A stretch of 64,000 nt of DNA, taken from assembly GCA_008375315.1 (NCBI GenBank), contig CP032507.1, positions 3,930,071 through 3,994,070 on the forward strand, given 5' to 3'. Both the position numbers and the translations under genes were made by a program. The stretch is from Ectothiorhodospiraceae bacterium BW-2. Its GTDB lineage: Bacteria; Pseudomonadota; Gammaproteobacteria; Thiohalomonadales; Thiohalomonadaceae. Shown here piece after piece: positions 27,805 to 48,400 of the stretch (position 1 is its first letter; every line of letters begins with the position of its first letter). The notes under the pieces are model-generated. The model was given only the letters and a program-made list of their open reading frames with translations. It was not told the DNA's origin and made no database searches.

Positions 27805-28422
27805 TTGCCCTCGACCGCCACCACCGATTGCCCCCCGCTGCTCGCCGATGCCGTGCGTCCGGCCGTCGTCGAGCTAATGCGCCAAGGGGTCGTGCTCGCC
27901 GCCAAACGACCCTCACAGTTTGAGCAGCTACAGCGCCACCTACCGCAAGTGCGCCACTATCTCGCCACTCTGTGGCTAGAGGTGGTGCTAGATGAGAGCG
28001 CCGGCATTGCGCTATTACAACAGCAACTCAGTAGTGAAGCAAAGGAGAGCCACCCCGAACTGATCCCCCCTCGCCCCCTAACTCTCTACGATACGCTGCT
28101 ACTGCTGGTGCTACGACGCCACTTTCAGCAACGAGAAACGGCGGGGGAGGAGCAGATCACTATCGATATTGAGCAGATAGAGAGCCAGTTACTCCCCTTT
28201 CTCCCACTCACTAACAGCGCCCGCCAAGATCGGCGCAAATTGAGCGGCGCGTTAGAACGGCTGCGGGAGAGGAAGATTATCCAGCCACTGCGCAGTGAGT
28301 CGGGTCGTTACGAAATTACCGCCGTTATTCGCTATGTCGTTGGCGCTGAATTTCTGCAACAGCTACTGCTTGAGTATGAGCAGCTACTCCCCGCCTCCTC
28401 CGCCCCCCCCTCGCGCCTCTGA
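27805..28422 (+). CDS. jetB: JetB/MksE-like DUF4194 protein
   Basis: A 205-residue protein resembling the DUF4194 subunit (JetB, MksE) of Wadjet SMC-like plasmid-defence complexes, which bind and cleave circular foreign DNA. No catalytic motif is expected; the second half (RRKLSGALERLRERKIIQPL) looks like a winged-helix protein-interaction segment. The earliest start is TTG 27805, with an in-frame stop at 27784 and no clear ribosome site; an internal ATG 24 codons further in is the alternative. It lies 70 bases after ntrC, behind a TATAAT-like -10 at 27751-27756. The next gene starts seven bases after its stop, so the two form an operon. Confidence 0.75.
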   Translation: MPSTATTDCPPLLADAVRPAVVELMRQGVVLAAKRPSQFEQLQRHLPQVRHYLATLWLEVVLDESAGIALLQQQLSSEAKESHPELIPPRPLTLYDTLLLLVLRRHFQQRETAGEEQITIDIEQIESQLLPFLPLTNSARQDRRKLSGALERLRERKIIQPLRSESGRYEITAVIRYVVGAEFLQQLLLEYEQLLPASSAPPSRL

Positions 28423-28429
28423 ACTCGCC

Positions 28430-31400
28430 ATGCAGAGCGATCTCTTCAGTCGTGACCAGATCCGCCTCGCCGAGCTATCGCTCTGTAACTGGGGCTCGTT
28501 TCATGGACTGCACCAGATTCGCATCGATCCGCAGGGGACACTCATTACCGGTGATAACGGCTCCGGTAAATCGACCCTCATTGATGGCCTCATGGCGCTG
28601 CTGCTACCGGCCGGTCAGACCAGTTTTAATATCGCCGCAGCTCAAGGTGATCGCCACGATCGCTCGCTAGTGACCTATATTCGCGGCAGCTACGGCACCG
28701 CCCACGACGGCTCCCGCACTCAGACCCTCTATAAACGGCCAGGGGCGGTAGTCACCGGCGTGAGCGCCCTCTATCGTCGCGATAACGGCAGCGTTATTAC
28801 CTTAACGGCACTCTTCTGGTTTACCCAATCGAGCCACGCTTTAAGCGATTTAAAACGGCTCTATCTGGTCGCCGTCGAACCTCTCTCGCTACAGACACTG
28901 CTACAGCACTTTGGCGAAGGGGAGAGTCGCCAATTGAAACAGAGACTGCGCAATAGCCCCAATAGGCAGCTATTTGATACCTTTAGTGACTATCAAGAGT
29001 GCTACTGCCGCTACCTATCGCTCCATAATCGTAACGCCCCAGCGCTGCTCTCGCGGGCACTAGGGTTAAAAAAGATCGACAATCTGACCCAACTCATTCG
29101 CGATCTGGTGCTAGAGCCGAGTGGCGTCAGCCACGATGCACGCCAAGTGGTGGCCGAATTTGACGATCTGGTGCTTATCCACCGCCAGCTCGAAGATGCC
29201 CGCAATCAGCGCGATACGCTGCAGGAGCTACCGGCGCTGCACCACCACATTAGCAGCGCCGAGGAGCAGCTACAGCAGCTACAGGCCGAACGCCGCGCAC
29301 TGAGCGTCTATCTTAGCGAGCAGGCACAGCGGCTGTGGCAACAACGCATCGACGATATCACCCTACAGCAGCAACGGCAGCAGCAGCAGATCGAACAGCA
29401 ACAGCAGCAGGAGTCCGATCTTGCCGACAGAGTTGAGCAGCTTCACGCCGCCTTTTTAAGCCGTGGCAGTGAGCAGTTACAGCAGTTGCGGCTCGAACTC
29501 GACCACGCTAGCGCCGAACAGCAGCGCATCGCCCGCCAAGCCAAACGCTATCAGCAGCTCGCCGTGCAGCTAGAGCTTAACCCCGAGCTCGAACCGACAC
29601 TATTTCAGCGCCAGCAGCAGGCGGCATTAGCGTCGATAACGGCCCTTGAGCAGCAGCGCCAGAGTCTGCTACAACAGCTCCCCGACACTCGGTTAGCCCT
29701 ACAGCAGCAGCAGCGTGAACTCAGTCAGCTTGAAGAGCAGATAGAGAGCCTCACCTCTCGTCCCGACTCGAATATCGCCCTGCCCTATCAGCAGTTTCGG
29801 CAGCAGTTAGCCTCTGAATTGGCGCTAGAGCCACCGCAGCTCCCCTATCTCGGTGAGCTCATCGCGGTCGCCGAGGATCAATCGCTATGGCAGGGGGCGA
29901 TCGAACGGGCTCTTCAGCCACTGGCCACGCGACTACTTCTCGAAAAGAGCCGCTACGAAGAGGCGATTCGCTGGCTCAATCAGCACCACAGCGGACTCCA
30001 TATCACCCTACAGCGTGTCGATATGGAGACTCTGCCCACTGCCCCGCCCACTTGGCGAGCCGACGGTATCCTCTGCCGTCTGCGTTGGCGAGAGCACCGC
30101 TATACCCGCTGGCTACAGCACTTTTTGGGCGCTGTTGACTACCACTGTGTTAATGGGCCGAGCGAACTAGCATCGCTCCCCTTTTCGATCACCCCCTCTG
30201 GCCTCATTCAGCACGAAGCGGGTCAGCTAGAGAAGCGCGATCACTCGCCTATCGACGATCAGCGCACTTGGCAGCTCGGCTTTGAGACCCACGATCGCCT
30301 GCCACTGCTACAGCAGGATCGACAGCAGTTACACCAGCAGATAGCCGCGCTACAGCAGCAGTGTCAGGCGGCGGATCGGCTCCTACAACAGCAGGATGAG
30401 CGCCTGCTGCAGTGGCAGCAGCTACTCACCATCGAGTGGGACGATATCGATCTGCCGCGAATTGAGAGACGCTATCAGCAGCAACAGCTAGATCTGGAAA
30501 AGTTAGCCGCTGCCGAAGAGGGTGCCACCACCGCACGGCAGCAGTGGCAGGAGGCGAAGCAGCAGCTCAAACAGCAGCGGGAGGCGATCCGCCGCCACAT
30601 CGCTCGTAGCGGCCTACTACAAGGCTCACTCGATGAGGCGGGTAAACATCAGCAGCGAGCCGCCACCGCCGCCGCCACCACCGATCCCCTCGATGCGGCT
30701 AGTCGAGAGGCCCTTATTGAGCGCATAGGCGAACTGACGCTACCGCAGTTAGATCAGATCCGCGATATTGAACAGCAGCAGCGGCACGAGCTAGAGCAGC
30801 GCGAAAATCGCGCCCGCAACCGCCTCCAGAGCTATAGCCGCCGAGCGGTGGCAGTCATGGTCACCTATCGGAAACAGTGGCCAACCATTGCCGCTAGCTG
30901 GGGCAGCGATCCTGAGGCGATTACCGACTATCTGCAACAGCTACAGCGGCTAGAGCAGGAGGGGCTACCTAAGCTGGTAGAGCAGTTTCGGCGGCGGCTC
31001 ACTCTCCACACCACCCAATCGCTAGCTAACATTCGCTCCCGTATTGAGGCTGAACGGGAAGATATCGCCGATCGCATTAACACCATCAATCGGGTACTAG
31101 CCCGTACCGAATTTCGTCCCGGCACCCATCTGCGACTCGGCAGTGAGATCGAGGAGTATGACTTCGTGCGCCGCTTTAACCGCCAGCTAGAGCAGCTTCT
31201 AGCCCCTACCGAACCGGAAGATCAGGAGGCGCACTACCATCAGCTACAGAAGGTGGTGAGTCAACTCGACAAAGCGACCGCCAACCAGCCACCGACGCTA
31301 GAGAGTCTGCGTCTGCTCGATCCGCGTTATCAGCTCAGCTTCTATGCCGAAGAGATCGACACCGATGGCGTAGTTAAAGATCGACTCACCTCCTCTAGCG

Positions 31401-31729
31401 GTAAGTCGGGCGGTGAGAAGGAGTCGTTCGCCGGCACCATCGTCGCCGCTAGCCTCGCCTATGTTCTCACCCCCGATGGCGGCGAACAGCCTATCTACTG
31501 CACCGTTTTTCTCGATGAGGCCTTCTCTAACAGCGCCGAGGCGGTCAGTCGCCGAGTGCTGCGAGTCTTTCGGGAGTTAAAGCTCCATGTCAATCTGATT
31601 ACCCCGTTCAAAAATCTCAATTTAGCGCGAGAGTCGGCCCGCTCGCTCATTATTGTCGAACGCGATAGCGCAACCCATGAGAGCCGCAGCTGTGAGGTGA
31701 CGTGGGAGGAGATTGAAAAGAAGCCATAG
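28430..31729 (+). CDS. jetC: JetC/MksB-like SMC-type ATPase
   Basis: Start chosen at ATG 28430, giving 1099 residues; the frame is open further upstream but that stretch overlaps jetB and encodes low-complexity residues. Walker A GDNGSGKST is at 41-49. A long Gln-rich coiled coil follows on each side of a hinge-like central region. ABC signature SGKSGGEKE and Walker B TVFLDEAFSNS lie near the C-terminus. This is the layout of MukB/MksB/JetC motors, which form a ring with a kleisin and move along DNA. The kleisin (jetA/mksF) and nuclease (jetD/mksG) genes are not beside it. Its stop abuts the stop of the convergent gene with no spacer. Confidence 0.85.
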   Translation: MQSDLFSRDQIRLAELSLCNWGSFHGLHQIRIDPQGTLITGDNGSGKSTLIDGLMALLLPAGQTSFNIAAAQGDRHDRSLVTYIRGSYGTAHDGSRTQTLYKRPGAVVTGVSALYRRDNGSVITLTALFWFTQSSHALSDLKRLYLVAVEPLSLQTLLQHFGEGESRQLKQRLRNSPNRQLFDTFSDYQECYCRYLSLHNRNAPALLSRALGLKKIDNLTQLIRDLVLEPSGVSHDARQVVAEFDDLVLIHRQLEDARNQRDTLQELPALHHHISSAEEQLQQLQAERRALSVYLSEQAQRLWQQRIDDITLQQQRQQQQIEQQQQQESDLADRVEQLHAAFLSRGSEQLQQLRLELDHASAEQQRIARQAKRYQQLAVQLELNPELEPTLFQRQQQAALASITALEQQRQSLLQQLPDTRLALQQQQRELSQLEEQIESLTSRPDSNIALPYQQFRQQLASELALEPPQLPYLGELIAVAEDQSLWQGAIERALQPLATRLLLEKSRYEEAIRWLNQHHSGLHITLQRVDMETLPTAPPTWRADGILCRLRWREHRYTRWLQHFLGAVDYHCVNGPSELASLPFSITPSGLIQHEAGQLEKRDHSPIDDQRTWQLGFETHDRLPLLQQDRQQLHQQIAALQQQCQAADRLLQQQDERLLQWQQLLTIEWDDIDLPRIERRYQQQQLDLEKLAAAEEGATTARQQWQEAKQQLKQQREAIRRHIARSGLLQGSLDEAGKHQQRAATAAATTDPLDAASREALIERIGELTLPQLDQIRDIEQQQRHELEQRENRARNRLQSYSRRAVAVMVTYRKQWPTIAASWGSDPEAITDYLQQLQRLEQEGLPKLVEQFRRRLTLHTTQSLANIRSRIEAEREDIADRINTINRVLARTEFRPGTHLRLGSEIEEYDFVRRFNRQLEQLLAPTEPEDQEAHYHQLQKVVSQLDKATANQPPTLESLRLLDPRYQLSFYAEEIDTDGVVKDRLTSSSGKSGGEKESFAGTIVAASLAYVLTPDGGEQPIYCTVFLDEAFSNSAEAVSRRVLRVFRELKLHVNLITPFKNLNLARESARSLIIVERDSATHESRSCEVTWEEIEKKP

Positions 31730-34700
31730 TCACGACAGTTCAAAGCCTATTACCGAGACATCATCACGGCGCGACTCCTCACCGCGATAACGGTTCATCT
31801 CCTCAAATAGATAGCCTCCCACCCGCTCTATCGGCAGTGAACGACTCTGTAGCAGCAGCTCTTTAAACCGTTTTTTGCCCATCATGCGCCGTTTTTTACC
31901 GCCGACCTGATCTAAAATGCCATCACTGCTCATCACAAAGCGGCGTCCAGGGCGCTGTTCGAGACTGCGATTATTAAACAGCACTCCCATTGAGACGCCA
32001 CGATAGCCGATACCGCACTTATCCCCCTTAACCTCCACCACTTCGTCGTGGTCACTATCGAGATAGAAGAGGGAGAAGCGGGCGCCGGCAAAGATTAGCT
32101 CGCTACCTTGATCGGGGATAAATAGCACCCCTAACTCAATGCCGTCATCCGACTCCCCCTCGGGTAGATCCTGTCCGAGTGACTGCTGCATATAGCGGTG
32201 CATATAGCCGATGAGTGAGGCGGGCGAGCCGGGGGGGGCCATGTCGATCGCATTTTCAAACGCGCCGTTAGCAATGAGGGTCATAAAAGCGCCCGGCACT
32301 CCATGGCCGGTACAGTCCCCTAACACAATGTAGCGCCCCTTAAGCCACTGTCGCATCCAGTAGATATCCCCCCCGACGACATCGCGCGGCTCCCAGAGAA
32401 TAAAGTGTTTAGGCAGCAGTTTGCGCCGCTGCGCTTCGCGCGGCAGCACTGAACGCTGAATGCGGCTGGCGTATTGAATAGAGCCGGTTAAGATCTCCAT
32501 CACCGAGCGCATCTGCTGTTCGCTCTCGGCTAGCTCTGCCGTTCTTTCAGCAACTCGATGCTCTAAAGTGTGGTTAAATTGGCGCAGTGCCTCCTTTTGG
32601 CGCTCAATATCGGCCGTTTTGAGCGCGACTAGCCGGTTAAGGCGGTAGTTGTTGTAGAGGATTAACAAAATCACCACCAACACCCCGAGCCCTATCTTGA
32701 ACACTAGCTGGTAGTCGAGCTCCTCCCCCACCTTCAACCCAACCCAGCGGTAGCGAATGGTATCCATTTCGCTCTCTGGAATCGCCGCAATCGCCTTATT
32801 AAGCACCGAGAGCGCCTCGGGGGGGAGCTGCTGCGACAGTGCGATATGGAGTTGACGCCTCTTATCGAGCCGCAGCGCCACTTTTAGGTTATAGATCCCC
32901 TGCTGGTTCATAATGTAGCTCATCACTTCAAGATTGCCGATAAAGGCATCGATCGTGTTATCGAGTAGCTGCTTAACGCCGTTATGCGTCCCTTTGATCG
33001 GCATAACGATTATCTCAGGGTGGTTTTGCCTGATTAGGTGGTGTACCGAAATGCCATCGGGTACGCCAACCCGCAGCCCCTTCAGATCCGATAACTCGCT
33101 AATGAACTCAGCATCGTGGTGCATTACCACCCCATCGTTTAGCTCAATCGTGGTGGAGCTAAAGTCGAGAAACTGCTCCCGCTCAGGGGTTCGACTCACC
33201 GCAGCGAGCATATCGACCTGACCGGTTCGTGCCAACTCTACCGACTCAGGCCACCTCTCAGTGGGCACTAATTCAAAGCGAATACTGGAGATTTCACCTA
33301 TTTTTTGCAAAATATCGGCCATCATCCCCTCGTAGCGCGGCCCCTCGTCGGTCGCGGTAATCGCCTCTATCGGTAACCAGTTAGGATCGACGGCAAAGCG
33401 CAGCAGCGGCTTGTCGATTAACCACTCTCGCTCCCGATCAGTCAGCTCTAGTGTCGCCGTTCCCCGCTCGATGGTACTCATCCAGTTTTGTGAGATCTGT
33501 CGCCGATCTACCGGTGAGATCGCCTTAATCGCTAATGAGATGATCTCCGCTAGCTCAGGGTAGTCGCTGCGGGTCGCCATGTGTAGACGGATCGGAGAGC
33601 GCCCCGGCACTAAATTATTGATCACAATTCCAGAGAGAAAGTGCTGTTCCATCGTGTAGGTAGTCGAGGGGTTATCATTAATAAACGCCTCCACCTGCCC
33701 CGATTTGACCTGTCGCAGCCCCTCCAGAATCGTCTCACTCTGCAACAGCTCAATTTGGGGATGGTGCTGTTGTAACCAGTCAACAATCGCATACCCTTTC
33801 ACAACCGCGACTCTCTGCCCATAGAGCGACTCTAATGAGTGGATAGGCTCTCTGTCGCTACGGGTAAAGAAGTAGTCCGATAGCGAGAGGTAGGAGTGGG
33901 TAAAGTTAAACTTTTTTGCCCGCTCGGGTGAGAAGTAGATCGCCGGCAACATATCGATCTCCCCCTGTTCGAGGGCTATGAGCAGCTCATTCCAGCTTCT
34001 ACCGGTCTGAATATCAAACTTAAAGCCGATCAGCCCCTCAAGTCGCCGTAGGTAGTCGTTAGCCAATCCTTGGTGCTCACCGCTTTCATTGACAAAATCG
34101 AACGGCGCCCAGTCGAGTTCACCGCCCACCCGAATCGTGGGGTGGCTCTCTATCCAGCGCTGCTGTTCAGCGCTTAAACCCGCCAGCCGGCTCTGCTTCC
34201 CTAGCCAGCGCTGACGGATCTCTCCCATTTCCACCATCGTCGTCGCCTGTAGCGCTTTAGAGAGGATTGAGTGGAGTTCGGGGTTATTTTTGCTAACGGC
34301 CAGATAGAGCTCGGCTGAGCTATCATCAGCTTGAAACTTAGCACGCGGCTCAAGATCGGCCATCATCATCTGATTGATAGCGTAGTCGAGGACAATGCGT
34401 GAGCCGATAGTCGCTTCAGCTCGGCCATAGAGCACCGCCTCCAGCGCCTCTTGGACATTATTGACCACAAGCCGCTGCACAAGCGGGTAGTTATCGAGCA
34501 AAATACGATCAATCCAAAAACCATCGACAACAGCCACTTTTTTGCCATTTAGCGAGTCAATATCGCTGATATCCCCCCTATCTTTACGGGCATAGATAAC
34601 GGTTGGATTCTCGGCATAGCTGCCAACATAGTCGAGATAGGCCTGGCGCTGTTCGGTTTTGGCGATATTGAGCATGACATCAATATCACCCAAAAAGGCT

Positions 34701-35260
34701 TGATTGAGCAGCTCGTTCCACTCCCCCGAGACAAACGCTAGCCGCAGCCCCGCCTTCTCAGCTAGATGGCGCATTAGATCGATAGAGAGACCGCGCGGCT
34801 GGCCATTGTCGTTAAAGTTAAACGGTGGCCAGTTATTTTCGTTATGGACTCTAACCGGCGCGTGGTTAGCAAGCCACGCCTGCTCTGCTGCGGTCAACAG
34901 CAGCTCCCCCTCTGCCGGCAGGTAGCAGAGCTCAACCCGACCAATCGTCTCGCCATCGTAGTCGATAGCGGCTAGCTGCCGCTGTAGCGGCGCGACACAC
35001 CCCTCGGAGGGGGGCTCACCGTAGGGGTAGTGCCAAAAGAGTGTCTCATCGACCGCATCGATAATCGCCACACTGTGAATCTGCGGCTTATCGGATAGAT
35101 AGGGGGGGATTACCTGCCCCGGGCCATCACGATTCAGTTCAAACAGATAGCCGGCGACCATACTGGCGAGCGCCTCAGCCTGCTGCTGTCCGGCAGCCGC
35201 GACACCGCTTAGCAGTGGTAATAGTAGTAGTAGCGCCAGTCGCTGACACAAACTAGTCAT
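31730..35260 (-). CDS. Receptor with three solute-binding domains and PP2C (SpoIIE-type) phosphatase
   Basis: A 1176-residue protein. A signal peptide (LALLLLLPLLSGVAAA) leads into three consecutive SBP_bac_3 periplasmic binding domains (about 125-355, 360-600, 605-850), each starting with a pattern like NWPPFNF, DWAPFDF or NWLPIEA. One membrane helix follows (about 853-875, IGLGVLVVILLILY), then a coiled coil, then a PP2C/SpoIIE phosphatase domain with metal-site motifs VGGDIYW, LGDCTGHGVPGAFMT, MSSDGILDQ and RRDDVSVIG. In the Sia pathway the phosphatase SiaA dephosphorylates SiaC; this protein sits in that position of the operon and would link periplasmic ligands to SiaC. It overlaps the previous gene by eight bases. 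Ligands are unknown. Confidence 0.85.
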   Translation of the reverse strand: MTSLCQRLALLLLLPLLSGVAAAGQQQAEALASMVAGYLFELNRDGPGQVIPPYLSDKPQIHSVAIIDAVDETLFWHYPYGEPPSEGCVAPLQRQLAAIDYDGETIGRVELCYLPAEGELLLTAAEQAWLANHAPVRVHNENNWPPFNFNDNGQPRGLSIDLMRHLAEKAGLRLAFVSGEWNELLNQAFLGDIDVMLNIAKTEQRQAYLDYVGSYAENPTVIYARKDRGDISDIDSLNGKKVAVVDGFWIDRILLDNYPLVQRLVVNNVQEALEAVLYGRAEATIGSRIVLDYAINQMMMADLEPRAKFQADDSSAELYLAVSKNNPELHSILSKALQATTMVEMGEIRQRWLGKQSRLAGLSAEQQRWIESHPTIRVGGELDWAPFDFVNESGEHQGLANDYLRRLEGLIGFKFDIQTGRSWNELLIALEQGEIDMLPAIYFSPERAKKFNFTHSYLSLSDYFFTRSDREPIHSLESLYGQRVAVVKGYAIVDWLQQHHPQIELLQSETILEGLRQVKSGQVEAFINDNPSTTYTMEQHFLSGIVINNLVPGRSPIRLHMATRSDYPELAEIISLAIKAISPVDRRQISQNWMSTIERGTATLELTDREREWLIDKPLLRFAVDPNWLPIEAITATDEGPRYEGMMADILQKIGEISSIRFELVPTERWPESVELARTGQVDMLAAVSRTPEREQFLDFSSTTIELNDGVVMHHDAEFISELSDLKGLRVGVPDGISVHHLIRQNHPEIIVMPIKGTHNGVKQLLDNTIDAFIGNLEVMSYIMNQQGIYNLKVALRLDKRRQLHIALSQQLPPEALSVLNKAIAAIPESEMDTIRYRWVGLKVGEELDYQLVFKIGLGVLVVILLILYNNYRLNRLVALKTADIERQKEALRQFNHTLEHRVAERTAELAESEQQMRSVMEILTGSIQYASRIQRSVLPREAQRRKLLPKHFILWEPRDVVGGDIYWMRQWLKGRYIVLGDCTGHGVPGAFMTLIANGAFENAIDMAPPGSPASLIGYMHRYMQQSLGQDLPEGESDDGIELGVLFIPDQGSELIFAGARFSLFYLDSDHDEVVEVKGDKCGIGYRGVSMGVLFNNRSLEQRPGRRFVMSSDGILDQVGGKKRRMMGKKRFKELLLQSRSLPIERVGGYLFEEMNRYRGEESRRDDVSVIGFELS

Positions 35261-35969
35261 CTAAGTTCAGGCCGGCATTAAGTCGGTCGAGAAAGGCATC
35301 CTCCACCTGCTGGGAGCAGATAAGGTAGCGGCTATTGCCCTCCGGCATCCCCTCTAGCGGCTTAACGCTTAGCCGCTCTCGTTCGGGGTGCTGCTGTAGC
35401 AGCTCATCGCTCTTCTCTCGGCTAATAAACATATAGTCAGCGCGTCGTTTCGCTATCATCGACATCATGGTGATATTGTCGGTACCGGTCTGACGCACCT
35501 TAACTCCCGACTCAACTAGACGAGTATCGATAAACTGCCCATAGGAGTAGGAGGTTTTGATTAGGGGGAGTAACGCCGTGTCGGCAAAGAGATCATCGAC
35601 CGAGTGGATGGTACTAAAGCGGCCATTGCTACGATGAATCAGTATCGCCATCGGCCTATCCCGATAGAGTGGCTGACTATATTTAGCATACTGCTCCCGT
35701 TCGCTGTTTTTAAACCAGCCGACGGCGCAGAGAGCCGCTTGATTAGCTTTAATCTCGTGCAGATGGCGTTTGGAGGGCTTTTCGGTGAGCTGATAGGCGA
35801 GCCCCCCCCGCTCTAGCGCTACCATGAGCGGTGTCGCTACCCTGCCGCTGAGGGAGTCGCCCTCTTTGATGACAAAGGGGGGACGCGCCTCATAGACAAT
35901 CTCTACCGATAGCGGCTCTGCCTGACTCGCTCCTATGAACCATAAAAAAGCGAATAGTAGGTATCTCAT
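35253..35969 (-). CDS. Periplasmic solute-binding protein (SBP_bac_3-like)
   Basis: A 238-residue protein with a signal peptide (MRYLLFAFLWFIGASQA) and one family 3 solute-binding fold, recognisable from YEARPPFVIKEGDSLSG, the repeated two-lobe pattern and MPEGNSRYLICS near the end. No ABC permease or ATPase is nearby, so it is more likely a sensory partner than a transporter component. Its ATG has a GGGAG ribosome site, and its end overlaps the start of the receptor phosphatase, whose own three domains belong to the same family. Confidence 0.8.
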   Translation of the reverse strand: MRYLLFAFLWFIGASQAEPLSVEIVYEARPPFVIKEGDSLSGRVATPLMVALERGGLAYQLTEKPSKRHLHEIKANQAALCAVGWFKNSEREQYAKYSQPLYRDRPMAILIHRSNGRFSTIHSVDDLFADTALLPLIKTSYSYGQFIDTRLVESGVKVRQTGTDNITMMSMIAKRRADYMFISREKSDELLQQHPERERLSVKPLEGMPEGNSRYLICSQQVEDAFLDRLNAGLNLDD

Positions 35970-36001
35970 CGTGACTCCCTCACAGGGTTGATATAAAAAT
36001 C

Positions 36002-38077
36002 TTAGGCGGGTTTAGCCTCAGGTCGCTGTAACAGCTTGTCGATATCGACCCCATCGATCTGATCGGGGTGGAGAAAACGACGCGCATAGTCGAGATAGGC
36101 ACCGCTGGTTAAAAAGAGCTCAAATAGATCCGCATCAATGTGTTGATCGTTACGCATAAAACTCATAATGCGCAGCGACTCAGAGAGGGGTTTGGCCTTT
36201 TTGTAGGGCCTATCTGAGGCGGTCAGCGCCTCAAAGATATCGGCAATCGCCATGATCCGCGCCTGTACCGACATATCGGCCTTGGTCAATTGGCGCGGGT
36301 AGCCGGTACCTATCATCGTCTCGTGGTGGTTACAGGCGATATGGGGCACCTGACTTAAATTACGCGGAAAGGGGAGTTGATCGAGCATAATCACCGTTTG
36401 AATCATGTGCTCATTAATTTTATAGCGCTCTTCGCTATTGAGCGTCCCTTTCGGAATCGAAAGGTTGTAGAGCTCCCCGGTGTTATTGAGATATTTAGGC
36501 GCTTGCATCTTAAAGCCATAAGCCTCCATGCGATATGGCAGCTCACCTTTAGGATAGGGAAACAGATGCTCCTTTTTGTCGCTAATCAGCTTTTCGGTAG
36601 CCGGTAGCCGTTTTTTAACGACGCCCTGCAACCGAAACTCCTCATCTTGTGACAGCCCGAGCCGATCATCAAAGTAGCGCGTCCACTCGATAGCGGCAAT
36701 CGCCCTAAGCCGTTCGACTCGTTCGGGCACCATAAACTCCCCGCCGACATTACACTCAGCGACAAAGGCAAAATCGTCCTGTAGCTGCTGCAACCGCTCA
36801 CCTAACTGCTGCTCAAGCGCCCGCTTATCCCCCCCCTCAAGCTGCGCTTGTAGCGCCTCTAGCTGATAGTCGCGATGTTTAATCTCAAACCGCTGCCGAA
36901 CTTCGTGAATACGGTTATAGATGGTCTCTAGCTTGGTCGCCTTATCCATCACATAGTCAGGGGTAGTTACCTTACCGCAGTCGTGCAGCCAGGCGCCAAT
37001 CTCAAACTCGCGCCACTGCTCCTCGCTCATATCGAACTCAGCAAAGAGACCCTCTTCAGTTTCACACGCCGCTTGTGCTAGCAGTTTGCCTATCTCCGGT
37101 ACCCGTTCGCAGTGGCCGCCAGTGTAGGGCGATTTGGCGTCAATCGCCGAGGCGGTCAGTTTGATAATCGAGTCGAGCAGCCGCTCCTGTGAGGTAACTA
37201 GCTCCTGATTTTGGTGGGCAACAGCGGCTTGGGAGGCGAGCGCACCGACCATCTCCACCATCTCTTCGGTAAAGGGAACGGTGCGCCCCCCGCTACTTTT
37301 ACGGGCGTTAATTAGCTGTAAGACCCCAATCGTCTCCCCTCCGCGCGGCTTTAGCGGTACCGCCATGAGCGATAGCGTGCGATAGCCGTTATCGATATCA
37401 AACTGATGCTGCGCCTGATGGTCAAAATCGACGCTCTCGTAGCTATTGCCAACCCGAACCGTCCTCTCGGTCAGTACCGCATGGGCGACCATATTGAAGT
37501 AGTTAGGCTGCATGGTCACAGGATCACGCAGCGTAACCACCGGTAGCTGTACCGGTAGTTCGCTGGTGCCGCCACGATGCATATCGAGCGTATCGTAGGA
37601 GACAATCTGCGGTTCAAGGCGATTATCGAGGGTACGAATATAGAGCGTTGCCCCATCGGCATGGGTTAACTCTTTAGCGCCGGCGAGAATCATCTCGCTA
37701 AAACGGACTGAATTCTGCTCTAGCGAGAGCGAAATCCCTAGGCTCACTAGCCGCTCTAGTTTCGCCTGACTTATCTCTAGCGCCCGCGTGCGCTCTCGCA
37801 CCTTCTCTTCTAGTAGATCGGCGTGTTTCTCCAGTTTAGCGTGCGTCTGCTCTAGCTCGACCTGCTGCGCCTGAATTTTGGCATTCGCCTCCTTTAACCC
37901 CTCCTCACTACGATCACTCATGTGCACTAGACGATTAGAGGTCTTATAGAGTTTTTTATACTCCTTCAGTAGCGCAGCGTAGGCGGGACGAAACGCACTC
38001 TCATTAAGTTCACTCTTTAGCAGCTCGTCACTATCACTAATCACCTGCTGCTCATCGGCAAAGGGTTCAAAGGCCAT
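36002..38077 (-). CDS. GAF/HD-GYP domain protein (cyclic-di-GMP phosphodiesterase candidate)
   Basis: A 691-residue cytoplasmic protein. An N-terminal coiled coil (about 50-105) precedes a GAF domain (about 105-290) and an HD-GYP domain. The HD motif is WLHDCGKVTTPDYVMDK and the later motif is NHHETMIGTGYP, so the metal ligands and the GYP triad are present. About 200 residues separate them, more than in typical HD-GYP proteins, with an extra helical insertion after the HD motif. The family hydrolyses cyclic di-GMP. It sits directly after siaC, where the Pseudomonas operon has the diguanylate cyclase gene siaD. Confidence 0.85.
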   Translation of the reverse strand: MAFEPFADEQQVISDSDELLKSELNESAFRPAYAALLKEYKKLYKTSNRLVHMSDRSEEGLKEANAKIQAQQVELEQTHAKLEKHADLLEEKVRERTRALEISQAKLERLVSLGISLSLEQNSVRFSEMILAGAKELTHADGATLYIRTLDNRLEPQIVSYDTLDMHRGGTSELPVQLPVVTLRDPVTMQPNYFNMVAHAVLTERTVRVGNSYESVDFDHQAQHQFDIDNGYRTLSLMAVPLKPRGGETIGVLQLINARKSSGGRTVPFTEEMVEMVGALASQAAVAHQNQELVTSQERLLDSIIKLTASAIDAKSPYTGGHCERVPEIGKLLAQAACETEEGLFAEFDMSEEQWREFEIGAWLHDCGKVTTPDYVMDKATKLETIYNRIHEVRQRFEIKHRDYQLEALQAQLEGGDKRALEQQLGERLQQLQDDFAFVAECNVGGEFMVPERVERLRAIAAIEWTRYFDDRLGLSQDEEFRLQGVVKKRLPATEKLISDKKEHLFPYPKGELPYRMEAYGFKMQAPKYLNNTGELYNLSIPKGTLNSEERYKINEHMIQTVIMLDQLPFPRNLSQVPHIACNHHETMIGTGYPRQLTKADMSVQARIMAIADIFEALTASDRPYKKAKPLSESLRIMSFMRNDQHIDADLFELFLTSGAYLDYARRFLHPDQIDGVDIDKLLQRPEAKPA

Positions 38078-38101
38078 CGCTATCTGCTCGCGCGTATCCC
38101 G

Positions 38102-38485
38102 CTACCCATCTTTAACCACTAGGTTAAAGGTAGCGTGCTCTAAATCTTCGCCAAACTCCTCCCCCATCTCCTCCATGTTGTCATCATCCTCCCGATAGTA
38201 CCAGTTGAGGGTCACTTGGCGACTCTCTGCCGCCTCATCGAGCATATCAAATAGGGTCATAATGATTTTAGCGCTGCTGCTATTAAAGTAGATGAGTTCA
38301 AAGTTAAAGGTAATCTCCCGTTCAAGCTGCGACTCCAGATAGTCGCGCAGCTTACCCATCGCCTCCTCATAGGTTTCAGAGATATCCTCAGGGTAGGACT
38401 CCCCTTTGAGTGAGAAGGTACCCTCGCTAAAACAAAAATCGATTTCAGGCGATCTTTCGGTTGCCTCAATGTAAATATTGTCCAT
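38102..38485 (-). CDS. siaC: SiaC-family (DUF1987) signalling protein
   Basis: A 127-residue acidic protein matching the SiaC/DUF1987 fold, which resembles anti-sigma-factor antagonists. From what is known of Pseudomonas SiaC, a Thr in an NTSS motif is phosphorylated by SiaB and dephosphorylated by SiaA, and the unmodified form activates the diguanylate cyclase. Here the equivalent stretch is YFNSSSAK at 66-73, so the acceptor would be Ser69 instead of Thr. The gene lies between siaB and the HD-GYP gene, with short spacers on both sides, so one transcript is likely. Confidence 0.8.
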   Translation of the reverse strand: MDNIYIEATERSPEIDFCFSEGTFSLKGESYPEDISETYEEAMGKLRDYLESQLEREITFNFELIYFNSSSAKIIMTLFDMLDEAAESRQVTLNWYYREDDDNMEEMGEEFGEDLEHATFNLVVKDG

Positions 38486-38509
38486 TACTTTACCTTAGAA
38501 ATGACAGAC

Positions 38510-39067
38510 TTAAACAAAAGCTTTAAGACTTAAATAGCTATAGTCGCTATCTATCGGCTCAATATCGTAGATAAATGACTTTGCCCTCCGGGCAATATCG
38601 ATAAAACCGACCCCAGCTCCTTTACTCCCCTCAGGAGTCTCACCGCGCAGGGCCTCTCTATAGAGCTGCTTTAACTCCGCGCCGGAGAGGGAGAGGATAT
38701 GCTCCAAATTACCACTTAACTTCGGCGCTTCATCACTGCGAATCATATTTGAGCAGGTGACAAAGTACTCTCCCTCTAGCTCACCTATCATCGCTAGGCC
38801 GTAACGGCTATCGAGCATTAAAGCCGTCTTCTCTGTCGGTTCAACGCTATAGCGAATCACATTTTGTACCTGCTCGACAAAGAGGTGAAAGACCGTTCTA
38901 GCAACCTTCTTATCGACCTCATCCTGCTCTAGCTTACCACGCAGCTGATTACCGATAGAGGCGAGCAGATCTTCAGAAATAAAACCGCAGTAGCAGAAGA
39001 TAACCCCCTCCCGCTGTAGCTGTTCTCGAAACTCTATCATTCTTCGGGCTAATCTCTCTTCGCTCAT
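38510..39067 (-). CDS. siaB: SiaB-family protein kinase
   Basis: A 185-residue protein of the SiaB family (DUF6272), first gene of the five-gene minus-strand operon. GHKL-like features are an N-box EQVQNVIRYS (about 70-79) and a glycine-rich G-box GSKGAGVGFIDIARRA. The expected role is phosphorylation of the neighbouring SiaC. The start has a strong GGGGAG ribosome site, and an AT-rich stretch at 39095-39125 with TATATA elements is a plausible promoter. Confidence 0.8.
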   Translation of the reverse strand: MSEERLARRMIEFREQLQREGVIFCYCGFISEDLLASIGNQLRGKLEQDEVDKKVARTVFHLFVEQVQNVIRYSVEPTEKTALMLDSRYGLAMIGELEGEYFVTCSNMIRSDEAPKLSGNLEHILSLSGAELKQLYREALRGETPEGSKGAGVGFIDIARRAKSFIYDIEPIDSDYSYLSLKAFV

Positions 39068-42422: not shown

Positions 42423-45400
42423 CTACTGTAGATAGACCCACACCCCCTGTCCGGCGGTGATGGTGTTGAGTGAGCCACTGCTGCCGGCCACATCGGCAAA
42501 GCTCCAGCTGTTATTGATAAATGCGAACAGGCGCTGCGGTTGTAGAGCTTGGCTGCTGAATTGGGCGACAAAGTCGGTGACTGTGATATCACTACTGCCA
42601 CTGCCAATCAGATTCCAGCCGGAAGTGAGGGAGCTGATATCGAGGCTCTGACTGCTACCGGTTAGGGTTAGATTAGCACTGCTGCCGGCGGCCACTTTAA
42701 CCCATATACCACGATTACGCAGCTGGCTTAGTGGTAGTTGGCCTAGAGAGCCGTTATTGCTGCTGCGGTCGTAGAACTGCCAGCCGTTGTTGATGAAGGC
42801 AAACAGTCGCTCAATGGCGCTGTCGGTGAAGTGGTCGGCAACGGTGGTGCTATCGTCGGGGGTGGTGTGGAGGGCGATGAGGTTCCAGCCTGCGGTGAGG
42901 TTGAGGGTTTGGCTGTTAGGGGTGTTGGTATCGTTGGCGGTATCGGTGTTGGTATCGGTGTTGGTATCGTTGGCGGTATCGGTCGCGGTATCGGTCGAGG
43001 TCGATGAGCCGGTGTCGGTGGCAGTCTCTGTCGCTGTCTCGGTTGAGGTGGCGCTATCGGTCGATGAGTCTGAGTCGGTATCGGTCGAGGTAGCGGTATT
43101 GTTGTCGGTAGCGCTACTTGTCGGGGTAACGCAGGCGTTGGTCGCGCTACCGGCTGCGGCCTCCTCTAAGGTTGGTAGGTTCAGGAAAAGCCGTTGTGTT
43201 CGTCCTGGTTGTAGGCGTGTTGGTTCGTTTAAGGTGGCATATCCTGCTGCGGCTAGGGTGAGGGTGGTTTCAATGGCTTCTGTCGTGCCCGCTTGGGGGG
43301 TGACTTGTAGCATAAAGCGGCCTCGGTCACTGGTTTGGGTTTCGATACCATTGGCAGAGATGGTGATATTGGCCAGTGGGCTGCTGCGATCGTATGAGAA
43401 TACGATGCCATCGATAATCGCATCGCTGCCGTTGGTGTTGTCAACGCGGAAGTTTTGTACTGGGCTGTGGTTAACCGCGCCGTAGTAGTCGATGGCGCTT
43501 ATTTGCCAGTAGTAGGTGGTTAGGTCGTCGAGTGGGTAGTTGTCATCGATGGCGACAAATGTCTCTGTTAGCTCTTCAAGGGTGTATTGTGGATTGAGTA
43601 GTCTGCCGCTGCTATCGGTCTGTTCGGTTTGACTCAGGCGCAGGGTGTAGCTTAGGGGGTGGTCTTCGGGGTCGTTCGTTTCGCTCCAGCGGGCAATGAG
43701 TTGGCTCTTTTGGGTCGAGTCGTTGGTCGGATAGGTTAGTTGTGGTGCTTCTGGTGGTAGGTTGGCGGCTAGTTGGCGATAGACTAGGCCTCGCCATGGC
43801 GGTGCGAGCCGACCGTCAATATCGTTGACATAGTAGTAGAGTTCGTAGAGCCCCGCTTCGTTAAAGTGGTCTGGGGTAAGGGTAACCTCCCAGCGGCCGT
43901 TGTCGCTGTGATAGATCATGGGGTGACGCGGTAGGTCGAGGGTGACTTGTTCGGTGCTAGCACGGGTGTCAAGGCTGGTCGCTGGGGTTTTAAGCTCTAT
44001 CCAGGCGGCTAGCACTTCGTTGTCGTGGTTCGCTTGGCTCCAGAGGGTGAGGGAGGGGGTCTCATCGTGGAGGTGTTGAGTGGGGGCGATGGCGGTGAGT
44101 TCTGCGGGGTTGTCTGCGCTGTTGGTGTCGTAGTTGGCTCCTACGCCAAGGTAGAGTTGTGCGGCAAGCTCTCCTTCGTTGCAGGCAAGGCTGAAGTCGT
44201 TGGTGCCGTAGCTATCACCGTTATCGTCGAAGAGTGGGTGTTGGACGCTGCGGTCGAACCAGATGTCGGTGCCGCTGCGGTTAAGGCGGTTGTCGGTGGT
44301 GGTGCGTTCGGTCTGTGCGGTGGCGCTGTCAAAGGCGTCGCGGTAGCTCTCGCCCCGTTGTAGCGCGGTGAAGAGGTGTTCGATGAAGAGTTCGCCCACT
44401 CGTATGCCGTCGTTCTCCATGGGGCCTTTGTGGCTCAGTTCGTTGCCGGCGGATGAGGTGATAATGAGTCGGCCGCCGTTGGTGAGTTGGTGGTTGTCGT
44501 ATTGGGGGGCTTGGCTCATTTCGTCGATAAAGCTGCCGGAGTAGCAGGCACCGTAGATGAGGGTGCGGGGGTGTTTGATGGCGGTGGTGGTGAGTTGTTG
44601 CTCTAGTTGGCTTAGGTAGTCGTTTAGTTCTGTGGCGGTTAGGGTTTCGTTACCGAGGTAGAAGAGGTTGGGGTCGCCGTGATCGACCATGACCAGAAGC
44701 AGTGGTGCCGGGGCGCTGTTCATCGCGTCAGCGAGGCTGTTTAGTGCTTGTTGTATGGCTGCTTTCGAGGGGAGGCCATCAATAAAGGGTTGGCCTCTCT
44801 CATCTGTTTGTTGGGGGTCGTAGTTGAGGTAGTGGATATTCTCTGCTTCAAAACCGCGTTCGATGAGGGTGGCATAGACGCGGTTGGTGGTTTTGTTGTG
44901 GGATTGGAGTCCCTCTTCGTTGCCTATTTTGCCTTGAACGATGAGGGCGTAGCCAGCGCCTTGGCCGACGACGATTTCGGTCGTGGCGCGGCTTGCGGCT
45001 AGGAGGGGGGTGGCGGTGGAGTTCGCTTCGATGCGGTAGCGTCCGGCAATGCTAAATAGGTCGGCGCTGCCATCGGGGGTGCGTTGTAGGGTGGTGCTAT
45101 CGAGGCTAAAGTGGCCTAGGGTGTCGTAGGTGTCGAGGTCGTAGTGGTGTTGTGCTAGTTCGGGGGTGGTGACGGTTAGGGTAATTGGGCGGCCAGCCAT
45201 TGAGGCGTCGGTCACTGGTAGGCGGGTCAGTTTACCGCTGATGGAGAGGGTGCCGTTTTGTAGGATGGTACTGGCGCTGGCGGTTAGGGTCAGTTCGGTG
45301 TGGGCTTGGTTGGCCGATTTGGCAAATAGTATTGAGTCGTAGCTTTGGTTGTTTCCTTCGTCGGTAGCGCGGCTGGTGATGGTGTAGGTGTTGCCATCGA

Positions 45401-48400
45401 CTAGGGTGACGCTGCTGCCAGAGATCCCCCAGCTCTGGCTGGTTGCTGAGTAGGTTAGTGGCAGCCATGCCGGTGAGGTTTGCCAATCGTAGCCGCCAAA
45501 TTCACTTGCTCCCCAGTAGAGGGTATTGGGGGTGGTGATGTCGCTAATCTGTACGGCCACTTCTGTCACGCGGCTCTCTGCGTCTGAGGCGGTGACGGTA
45601 ATGGCGGGTAGTAGGGCGGCGGTTTGGCCATCTGTGGGTGAGATGAGGGCCGTGGCGGGCGGTTGATGGTCGGTGACGGTGGTGAGGGTGAGGGTGGTCG
45701 TCGCTTCGGCGGTGTTACCTGAGCTGTCGCTGGCGTTAAAGGTGAGGGGGGTGGTGCCGCTGGCGAAGGTGGCGGGTGCGTTGTGGCTCACGCTTAGGGT
45801 GCCATCGTGGTTGTCGTCGGCGGTGGCGCTGCTGAGGAAGGTGCTGATGCGGTTGTCTGTGGCACTCAGTTCGGTTTGGTTAATGAGGGTGAGTTGGAGC
45901 GGTTCAGGGGGGTTGATTGTTGGTGGTAGGGTGTCGATTACATGGATGTGGCGGGTGGTGCTATTGGCGTTGCCGGCTCTATCTTCGACGGTATAGGTTA
46001 GGGTGTAACTGCCGAGCGCTGCGCTGTTAACGCTACCGATGAGGGTGATTAGGTCGGTGAGGTCGCCGTCAATTGTATCGTTTGCGCTTGCGCCGGGGTC
46101 GGTATAGCTCTCGCCGTAGGGGTGGGTTAGGTCTGTTTCACCATTTAGGGTGAGTGTGGGGGGGGTGAGGTCGGCGATGATAATGACGGCTTGGGCGCTG
46201 CCAGTATTCCCTTGGCTATCGGTTGCGCTGAAGGTGACGGTGGTGCTCCCTAGTGGGAGTTGGTTCGGGGCGTTGTGGCTGATTTGGGTCAAGTCGCCAT
46301 CGATGTTGTCGCTAGCGGTGGCGCTATTGAGGAAGCTGGTAATGGCGCTGTGTGTGGCGGGGGTGCCGGTGGCATCGATAGCGGCCACGGTAATGTTCGC
46401 TGGCGGGGTAACTACGGGGGCGCTGCCATCTTGTACGGTGATAGAGCGGGTGACGGTTTGGGCGGCGTTACCGGCTGCATCGCTGACATTGTAGTTGAGG
46501 GTGTAGAGCCCTACTCGGCTGGTATCGACGCTGCCGCTGAGGGTGATGCGGTTGCTAATATCGCCATCGACATTGTCGCTCGCTGTCGCGCCCTGTTCGG
46601 TGTAGCTTTGGCCGATATTGAGGGTGAGGGCGCTGTTACCGTTCAGGGTGAGGATGGGTTTGGTCTGGTCGGTAACGGTAATTGTGGCTTGGGCACTGCC
46701 TCGATTCCCTTGACTATCGGTCGCGCTAAAGGTGACGACTGTCACGCCTAGTGGGAGTTGGTTCGGGGCGTTGTGGCTGATTTGGGTCAAGTCGCCATCG
46801 ATGTTGTCGCTAGCGGTGGCGCTATTGAGGAAGCTGGTAATGGCGCTGTGTGTGGCGGGGGTGCCGGTGGCATTGCTAGCGGCCACGGTAATGTTCGCTG
46901 GCGGGGTAACTACGGGGGCGCTGCCATCTTGTACGGTGATAGAGCGGGTGACGGTTTGGGCGGCGTTACCGGCTGCGTCGCTGACATTGTAACTGAGGGT
47001 GTAGAGCCCTACTCGGCTGGTATCGACGCTGCCGCTGAGGGTGATGCGGTTGCTAATATCGCCATCGACATTGTCGCTCGCTGTCGCGCCCTGTTCGGTG
47101 TAGCTTTGGCCGATATTGAGGGTGAGGGCGCTGCTACCTGTCAGTGTGATAACCGGCCTGCTCTGGTCTGCCACGGTGACAATGGCCTGCGCCCGACCGG
47201 TATTATTACTACTGTCGGTTGCACTAAAGGTCACGACCGTGGCCCCTAACGGGAAGGTGGTCGGGGCGTTATGGCCAATACTGGTCAGTAGCCCGTCAAC
47301 GGCATCGCTAGCGGTGGCGCTATTGAGGAAGCTGGTAATGGCGCTGTGTGTGGCGGGGGTGCCGGTGGCATCGATAGCGGCCACGGTAATGTTCGCTGGC
47401 GGGGTAACTACGGGGGCGCTGCCATCTTGTACGGTGATAGAGCGGGTGACGGTTTGGGCGGCGTTACCGGCTGCATCGCTGACATTGTAGTTGAGGGTGT
47501 AGAGCCCTACTCGGCTGGTATCGACGCTGCCGCTGAGGGTGATGCGGTTGCTAATATCGCCATCGACATTGTCGCTCGCTGTCGCGCCCTGTTCGGTGTA
47601 GCTTTGGCCGATATTGAGGGTGAGGGCGCTGTTACCGTTCAGGGTGAGGATGGGGTTGGTCTGGTCGGTAACGGTAATTGTGGCTTGGGCACTGCCTCGA
47701 TTCCCTTGACTATCGGTCGCGCTAAAGGTGACGACTGTCACGCCTAGTGGGAGTTGGTTCGGGGCGTTGTGGCTGATTTGGGTCAAGTCGCCATCGATGT
47801 TGTCGCTAGCGGTGGCGCTATTGAGGAAGCTGGTAATGGCGCTGTGTGTGGCGGGGGTGCCGGTGGCATTGCTAGCGGCCACGGTAATGTTCGCTGGCGG
47901 GGTAACTACGGGGGCGCTGCCATCTTGTACGGTGATAGAGCGGGTGACGGTTTGGGCGGCGTTACCGGCTGCATCGCTGACATTGTAACTGAGGGTGTAG
48001 AGCCCTACTCGGCTGGTATCGACGCTGCCGCTGAGGGTGATGCGGTTGCTAATATCGCCATCGACATTGTCGCTCGCTGTCGCGCCCTGTTCGGTGTAGC
48101 TTTGGCCGATATTGAGGGTGAGGGCGCTGTTACCGTTCAGGGTGAGGATGGGTTTGGTCTGGTCGGTAACGGTAATTGTGGCTTGGGCACTGCCTCGATT
48201 CCCTTGACTATCGGTCGCGCTAAAGGTGACGACTGTCACGCCTAGTGGGAGTTGGTTCGGGGCGTTGTGGCTGATTTGGGTCAAGTCGCCATCGATGTTG
48301 TCGCTAGCGGTGGCGCTATTGAGGAAGCTGGTAATGGCGCTGTGTGTGGCGGGGGTGCCGGTGGCATTGCTAGCGGCCACGGTAATGTTCGCTGGCGGGG

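Follow-up and report, generated by a model that had tools for sequence, protein, structure and literature searches.

The window (the whole stretch of DNA analyzed, 64,000 nucleotides long) contains a five-gene minus-strand operon, read from its list of open reading frames at positions 31730-39067, that quite probably encodes a Ser/Thr partner switch of the Sia type whose output is an HD-GYP protein and which operates by the mechanism proposed below. Control of the HD-GYP protein by SiaC is well supported at the sequence level, above all by a putative SiaC-docking segment near its N terminus. Beyond this, we infer in which direction the enzyme is regulated, which nucleotide it cleaves and which periplasmic ligand is sensed.

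The operon and its products

The features are, in their order on the minus strand:

38510..39067, minus strand: SiaB-family Ser/Thr kinase of the HATPase type, 185 aa (NF038262, PF19788, alignment to SiaB 6kko)
38102..38485, minus strand: SiaC-family phosphoprotein, STAS-like, 127 aa (PF09345, E=1.3e-40)
36002..38077, minus strand: GAF/HD-GYP protein, 691 aa, predicted effector at SiaD's place (Pfam HD_5, 2.6e-43, and GAF)
37862..37993, minus strand: putative SiaC-docking segment, residues ~29-72 (or ~26-69) of the HD-GYP protein (profile A4, E=2.3e-20)
37217..37696, minus strand: GAF domain, residues 128-287 of the HD-GYP protein, a presumed second cytoplasmic input (PF01590, E=1.4e-11)
35253..35969, minus strand: putative small periplasmic solute-binding protein, 238 aa (weak PF00497, TIGR02285)
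31730..35260, minus strand: SiaA-like membrane phosphatase, 1176 aa (Pfam SBP_bac_3 three times, 2.5e-63, and SpoIIE/PP2C; 6k4e)

Spacers of 24, 24 and 32 nt separate the genes from siaB to the small binding protein gene, and the final two genes share 8 nt. In promoter and terminator scans, sites were no more numerous than in shuffled sequences. An earlier note on this DNA had claimed a SiaB kinase, its SiaC target and a PP2C phosphatase with three tandem periplasmic binding domains, along with a GAF/HD-GYP protein in the position of SiaD. All of this is borne out: the family matches lie far beyond chance, the phosphatase has three SBP_bac_3 stretches, and the 38077-36002 reading frame matches both HD_5 and GAF. 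A fourth binding protein, also claimed, stands in part. The reading frame is present before the phosphatase gene, but its family match is weak (PF00497 at 21.1 bits, cut-off 26.4; TIGR02285 at 38.4 bits, cut-off 143.3), and a PDB search gave matches at E=0.007 at best; the product is probably a small periplasmic solute-binding protein.

The kinase scores 175 bits against NF038262 (cut-off 85; E=7.8e-52), and its FVEQVQN motif retains the glutamate at the position of E61, the predicted catalytic residue of P. aeruginosa SiaB (PMC7647112). SiaC is encoded by a single-copy gene in this genome, and its Ser69 aligns with the P. aeruginosa phosphosite Thr68 (alignment to the SiaC chains of 6kko, 6k4f and 7e6g). 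This placement rules out a loss of the phosphosite from Thr to Ala, a reading taken from the stretch NSSSAK. At 14 positions chosen from the contacts listed in PMC8457831, the SiaC surface is identical in eight (Y31, Y66, N68, S70, M76, D80, E110 and D114), conservatively changed in four (Q10E, D29E, T68S and L107M) and altered in two (I71A and R103N).

In the phosphatase, the three SBP_bac_3 domains (residues ~137 to ~850) are followed by one transmembrane segment (~851-870), a coiled coil and a PP2C/SpoIIE domain (978-1173), as judged by Pfam and hydropathy. Its PDB matches are the SiaA PP2C domain (6k4e, 4.3e-50) and the periplasmic domains of BvgS and EvgS. The PP2C metal-binding motifs GGD, DCTGHG, SSDGILDQ and RRDD are present; counting against the proposed switch, the position of SiaA F612, proposed as a SiaC contact in PMC7647112, falls in a loop without conservation. 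A Ser/Thr phosphosite, a SiaB-family kinase adjoining siaC, the PP2C metal motifs and an effector stalk motif are features of the SiaC-type partner-switch module that the operon shares. It is not SiaABCD proper, since the effector is not a GGDEF protein and all scores lie below the NCBIfam cut-offs for P. aeruginosa-type equivalogs (SiaA 223 bits against 700, SiaB 89.3 against 225, SiaC 89.8 against 150).

The effector is a predicted c-di-GMP phosphodiesterase, matching PmGH (4mcw, 1.3e-23) and V-cGAP3 (5z7c, 1.7e-16) in the PDB. The PmGH ligands H189, H221, D222, H250, H276, H277 and D305, plus K225, map to the invariant residues H322, H365, D366, H557, H584, H585, D613 and K369, respectively. 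The metal-ligand columns and the motif G592-Y593-P594, both features of HD-GYP phosphodiesterases, are invariant in 11 of 11 HD-GYP relatives. The HD-GYP domain comes in two halves, with about 155 residues between them. PmGH E185 and D183 are replaced by Tyr318 and Ser316 (Tyr or Phe occupies the E185 position in this subfamily), and a D183A mutation abolished the activity of PmGH, although the DAKSPYT stretch of the window protein also occurs in V-cGAP3.

A putative SiaC-docking segment on the effector

What ties the HD-GYP protein to SiaC? The docking segment lies inside one long helix (residues 30-119) in an AlphaFold model built from an 11-row alignment and used for the helix only (mean pLDDT 72.5, catalytic half partly below 50). 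A 58-aa query from this protein matched mainly genes immediately 3' of siaC. A profile grown from the segment matched 95 of 5857 reading frames, in 92 SiaC loci, and in 85 of the 92 the match was the gene immediately downstream of siaC; no match was found in the 29 HD-GYP reading frames of loci lacking SiaC. Matches at E<=1e-5 occurred in eight of 369 genomes, seven of which belong to the 10 SiaC genomes. One genome (G177) carries the segment in two proteins, yet the SiaC search found none there. Across the 85 adjacent effectors, mean column identity is 14%, with D55 (SiaD D83) invariant and E9, L36 and Y40 conserved in at least 90%, giving the pattern E9 ... L36..Y40 ... RLVRxSDR. S54, corresponding to SiaD S82, which is bonded to T68, is invariant in all 11 HD-GYP effectors. 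The earlier suggestion that an HD-GYP protein has come under SiaC in place of SiaD thereby gains strong sequence support.

The crystal structure of Pseudomonas SiaC with SiaD shows a stalk motif in contact with the phosphosite of SiaC. The docking segment is similar to this motif, and a link to the SiaD stalk itself has modest support. The broader docking profile recognized the stalk at 12.4 bits (E=0.025; best of 2000 shuffles, 7.9), while a profile of HD-GYP proteins alone did not (5.8 bits; shuffles up to 9.8), and a PDB search with the N-terminal 112 residues of the window protein gave chance matches only. SiaD Q86 and R80 correspond to Glu58 and His52, and one docking motif was found here, against two in SiaD.

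Proposed mechanism and competing readings

How would such a switch operate? The three periplasmic SBP_bac_3 (Venus-flytrap) domains, perhaps aided by the separate binding protein, would respond to small solutes and govern how active the cytoplasmic PP2C domain is. By homology, SiaB would place a phosphate on Ser69 of SiaC and the PP2C domain would remove it, as the P. aeruginosa SiaB and SiaA were shown to do at Thr68. Unphosphorylated SiaC would then dock on the N-terminal stalk helix of the HD-GYP protein via RLVxMSDR, with phosphorylation blocking docking; phosphorylation-sensitive docking on the stalk has been shown structurally for SiaD. Docking would fix the dimeric stalk and alter HD-GYP activity, most likely raising it and most likely lowering c-di-GMP, with the GAF domain as an extra input. 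If docking does raise HD-GYP activity, the P. aeruginosa logic, in which an active phosphatase means more c-di-GMP, would be inverted.

SiaC might instead bind the stalk and inhibit, or only position, the enzyme, so that phosphatase activity would raise c-di-GMP with the P. aeruginosa sign. This is unlikely, and the docking evidence is neutral on it: the segment occurs on enzymes with opposite effects, such as GGDEF proteins (22 of 85) and HD-GYP proteins (11 of 85), so the sign may be tuned enzyme by enzyme. Against inhibition, HD-GYP proteins commonly work as dimers. Moreover, SiaC stabilizes the active dimer in the one solved case, that of SiaD (PMC8457831). Slightly less likely still is hydrolysis of a different cyclic dinucleotide, for example 3'3'-cGAMP, or a role as a non-catalytic receptor. 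The replacement of PmGH E185 and D183 speaks for this, as does a DAKSPYT stretch shared with V-cGAP3 (5z7c), but a search of the genome for SMODS (CD-NTase) found no match, against 35 GGDEF matches.

Those 35 matches are also what would favor coincidence of neighborhood, with the true SiaC partner encoded elsewhere among the GGDEF proteins and the HD-GYP protein acting independently. The earlier note had named such a partner as the finding that would overturn its claim; none has been found so far, and no SiaD ortholog with a stalk is among the matches examined. In this genome, the HD-GYP protein is the sole match to profile A4 below E=1 (the next, at E=1.07, is partial). A query with a SiaD-like cyclase from the same family returned 30 GGDEF matches, the best spanning residues 75-265, without the motif. 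The docking motif was absent from all seven GGDEF reading frames read among the 35 matches (eight loci were returned, with none read from L174). An HD-GYP gene follows siaC in at least 12 loci of several lineages. Together these results make coincidence highly improbable. Returning to the preferred reading, in which SiaC acts on the HD-GYP protein, the further suggestion that attachment by giant surface proteins is affected found no support: the LapG protease family (PF06035) was not found in the genome, leaving the usual c-di-GMP/Lap route to adhesins unsupported.

Relation to known systems and a possible wider role for SiaC

P. aeruginosa SiaABCD (PMC7647112, PMC8457831) and the window operon have in common the SiaB-family kinase, a SiaC that can be phosphorylated at the residue corresponding to T68, the PP2C phosphatase and a stalk-helix effector whose motif resembles the SiaC contact. 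The window operon differs in its GAF/HD-GYP rather than GGDEF effector, Ser for Thr at the phosphosite, the single docking segment, three SBP_bac_3 domains as phosphatase sensor and the gene order B-C-effector-SBP-A. Metal ligands and GYP motif are shared with PmGH and V-cGAP3, and the GAF-then-HD-GYP order with PmGH, whereas the docking segment and the split HD-GYP domain are extra. Tandem SBP_bac_3 domains followed by one transmembrane segment recall the BvgS/EvgS-type Venus-flytrap sensors, whose output is a histidine kinase rather than a PP2C phosphatase. In HsbA-HsbD and BgrV-BgrR (named in PMC8457831), a STAS partner-switch protein likewise governs a c-di-GMP enzyme, but the STAS proteins are others and the target is a diguanylate cyclase, hence synthesis.

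If the proposal is correct, a switch known for starting the synthesis of c-di-GMP is also able to promote the predicted degradation of this messenger, and periplasmic binding-protein sensors can be tied to second-messenger enzymes with no need for a histidine kinase. A single docking segment would predict SiaC targets in many bacteria, and the suggestion that members of DUF1987 (SiaC) modulate the proteins encoded beside them (PMC8457831) would become a testable rule, centered on S54/D55 here and S82/D83 in SiaD.

The 85 adjacent effectors include HATPase_c (28), GGDEF (22), class III cyclase (16), HD-GYP (11), PP2C (3) and EAL (1) proteins. These shares describe a selected sample, in which a search with at least 574 SiaC loci is represented by its 80 best. 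It is fairly likely that SiaB-SiaC is a general plug-in switch, its docking segment joined to at least six unrelated enzyme classes, all under phospho-SiaC control: diguanylate cyclases, HD-GYP and EAL phosphodiesterases, class III nucleotidyl cyclases, HATPase/histidine kinases and PP2C phosphatases. The HD-GYP version recurs in at least 12 loci (the window included) from several proteobacterial groups and Desulfamplus, with cultured Rhabdochromatium marinum DSM 5261 (L037) and Pararhodospirillum oryzae (L047) among its carriers; as one of several outputs, it is not a one-off rewiring. L022/L135 and L023/L132 have identical SiaC within each pair, and in the HD-GYP count each pair stands for one locus. 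Many forks stayed open in a SiaC tree of 128 columns, from which L025 and L095 were left out as presumed duplicates of the L020 and L010 genomes. One genome of the same family, G372, carries both the HD-GYP and the GGDEF versions, possibly as an antagonistic pair.

The sia operon and its parts

The sia operon reported in the earlier note is real: five genes, named by Pfam and NCBIfam, lie close together on the minus strand between 39067 and 31730, three of their junctions being gaps (24, 24 and 32 nt) and one an overlap of 8 nt.

Genes of the sia operon, with the basis of each assignment
Minus strand; SiaB-family kinase; NF038262, over cut-off
Minus strand; SiaC; PF09345
Minus strand; GAF/HD-GYP protein; Pfam/NCBIfam
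Minus strand; family-3 binding protein, weak match; Pfam/NCBIfam
Minus strand; three SBP_bac_3 stretches and a SpoIIE-type PP2C domain in one protein; Pfam/NCBIfam

The PP2C part of the phosphatase has its best match in SiaA of P. aeruginosa (6k4e, 4.3e-50), and its periplasmic part matches the sensor domains of BvgS and EvgS; the protein has a single transmembrane segment at residues ~851–870. The genome, one contig of 4.07 Mb, contains a single copy of SiaC and 35 GGDEF matches. Ser69 of the window SiaC aligns with the P. aeruginosa phosphosite T68; in an 11-row alignment (A1) this column is Ser in 8/11 and Thr in 3/11, and the three Thr-type loci (L012, L015 and L017) have GGDEF proteins as neighbors. 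The SiaC residues that contact the stalk of the cyclase SiaD are listed in PMC8457831; 14 such positions were compared, and the window SiaC has the same residue at 8, a conservative replacement at 4 and a changed residue at 2.

In the HD-GYP protein, seven of the eight metal ligands of PmGH, together with K225, fall in columns that are invariant in 11/11 relatives (residues from PMC4159591). At the position of PmGH E185 the protein has Tyr, like the Y/F subfamily of that paper, and D183 is replaced by Ser, which makes the predicted catalysis less certain. Residues 30–119 are predicted to form a single helix, as would be required of a stalk.

A putative docking segment shared by SiaC effectors

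In the SiaC–SiaD crystal, as described in the available part of PMC8457831, SiaC holds a stalk motif of SiaD (residues 74–91), with T68 bonding S82 and Q86. The SiaD chain sequence agrees with the crystal residue numbers (RLEKVARISDRYQQMMRD), and the N-terminal region of the window HD-GYP protein, site of the putative docking segment, contains ...EYKKLYKTSNRLVHMSDRSEEGL.... The search set consisted of 5857 mechanically called ORFs from 92 SiaC loci: the window, 11 found in a set of 369 genomes of the class, and 80 from wider contigs, the best among at least 574. With residues 15–72 of the window protein alone as the query, so that position beside siaC played no part in selection, the majority of matches were the same-strand gene immediately 3' of siaC. 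A profile built from the better of these matches found 95 ORFs at E ≤ 1e-3. Of these, 85 follow siaC on its own strand at a distance of ≤260 nt, and they come from 85 of the 92 loci (all except L012, L014, L017, L019, L028, L055 and L084). The other ten lie downstream at >1 kb (four), upstream on the same strand (three) or on the opposite strand (three).

The docking segment is common to unrelated enzymes. Pfam (E ≤ 1e-5) assigned HATPase_c to 28 of the 85 effectors, GGDEF to 22, Guanylate_cyc to 16, HD_5 to 11, SpoIIE to 3 and EAL to one (L067), which has GGDEF too. Mean column identity in their alignment is 14%; D55, the window counterpart of SiaD D83, is the same in every sequence, and conservation at E9, L36 and Y40 reaches 90%. 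These four residues lie in the N-terminal region, where some conservation is expected because the effectors were partly chosen by a profile of this segment.

How specific is the segment? A profile made from 19 typed segments has one match in the window genome, the HD-GYP protein (2.3e-20), the next best being partial (E = 1.07). Among the 369 genomes, 8 have a match at E ≤ 1e-5, including 7 of the 10 SiaC genomes (Fisher p = 5e-12), five of which supplied rows to the docking profile; with these five set aside, 364 genomes remain, 5 of them with SiaC, and 2 of the 3 remaining matches are in SiaC genomes (p = 0.0005). The exception is G177, in which no SiaC was found; its two proteins (L176, 6973–7926 and 9905–11260) have near-identical docking segments. 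None of 29 HD-GYP ORFs from SiaC-less loci of the class has the segment (phmmer E ≤ 1, or pattern). The best six-frame matches to the window protein in other genomes begin at its residue ~90 or beyond, and the plasmid homologues, ten among the matches listed, at 103 or beyond. At the level of sequence, the parts of the system and their order are in place, the active-site residues are intact apart from the exceptions named, and the docking segment is unique in the genome.

The kinship of the segment to the SiaD stalk itself is modest. At the proximal motif a broad profile gives 12.4 bits (E = 0.025), against 7.9 for the best of 2000 shuffles; a profile of HD-GYP proteins only gives 5.8 bits, less than the best shuffles (9.8), shuffles being a weak control for coiled coils.

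Docking segment and PP2C domain occur in one protein at L020 441–1451 (the same gene in L025), L083 855–1847 and L021 3300–4331, possibly a second phosphatase recruited by SiaC, or feedback on the switch. Two effectors stand in tandem after one siaC at L062, L075 and L082 (e.g., a class III cyclase followed by a histidine kinase), which suggests one SiaC driving two outputs. Near an HD-GYP-type Sia locus of Desulfamplus, a metallo-beta-lactamase/cNMP-binding protein has the segment (L032 5880–8333, minus strand).

Recurrence and exchange of outputs

The arrangement in the window is no singular rewiring but one case of a wider plug-in scheme. An HD-GYP effector follows siaC at 12 loci, window included (at L033 the frame ends at a contig edge), from Magnetococcales, Magnetaquicoccus, gammaproteobacterial MAGs, Rhabdochromatium marinum, Azospirillaceae, Rhodospirillales, Pararhodospirillum oryzae and Desulfamplus. 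Two relatives from the window's own family have it (L132 and L135, with SiaC identical to L023 and L022, respectively), and in one of the two, G372, there is in addition a module of the GGDEF type that includes a SiaC of its own (L136, L178). On a SiaC tree of few columns, effector class requires 13 changes, against a minimum of 6 and a mean of 48.7 after shuffling, and therefore the classes cluster yet swap; starred sister pairs join PP2C with HD-GYP (L020/L037) and EAL with cyclase (L067/L062). Phosphatases with tandem SBP domains occur elsewhere at L021 (three), L037 (two), L025, L026, L052 and L067; at HD-GYP loci they are found in the window, L021 and L037.

Predicted signaling and neighboring genes

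In P. aeruginosa, SiaA and SiaB balance phosphorylation of SiaC-T68 (PMC7647112), and SiaD is activated when SiaC without the phosphate binds its stalk (PMC8457831). By analogy, unphosphorylated SiaC would bind the HD-GYP stalk as on SiaD and activate the enzyme. Amino-acid-like solutes would be the input. The substrate is presumably c-di-GMP; cGAMP is less likely because no CD-NTase (SMODS) was found in the genome. The main proposal of the earlier note, SiaC acting on an HD-GYP protein as SiaD substitute, has stronger support, from sequence comparison, than it had there. The suggested link to giant surface proteins was dropped, since LapG was not found in the genome.

The general idea was anticipated by PMC8457831, which suggests that it is common for DUF1987 proteins to modulate their neighbors; among the papers listed, it is the only one with that term, and none mentions DUF6272. 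SiaC and HD-GYP both occur in two of the papers listed, PMC8457831 and PMC9239204, and the accessible text of each draws no connection. No description of an HD-GYP output of SiaC, or of the shared docking segment, was found in the literature searched, with most subscription papers and all preprints outside it.

Immediately after an ntrBC-like pair, JetB-like (DUF4194/MukE-like) and JetC-like (MukB-like SMC) genes occupy 27805–31729 (plus strand). This Wadjet-type set looks incomplete, since no jetA- or jetD-like ORF of ≥150 aa was seen at 23.5–28.5 kb and the sia operon comes directly next. With no evidence of a tie to that operon, a very long repetitive ORF at 42423–50612 (minus strand) has a Thr/Ser/Asp-rich stretch near its C-terminus, and its repeats we take to be HYR-like.
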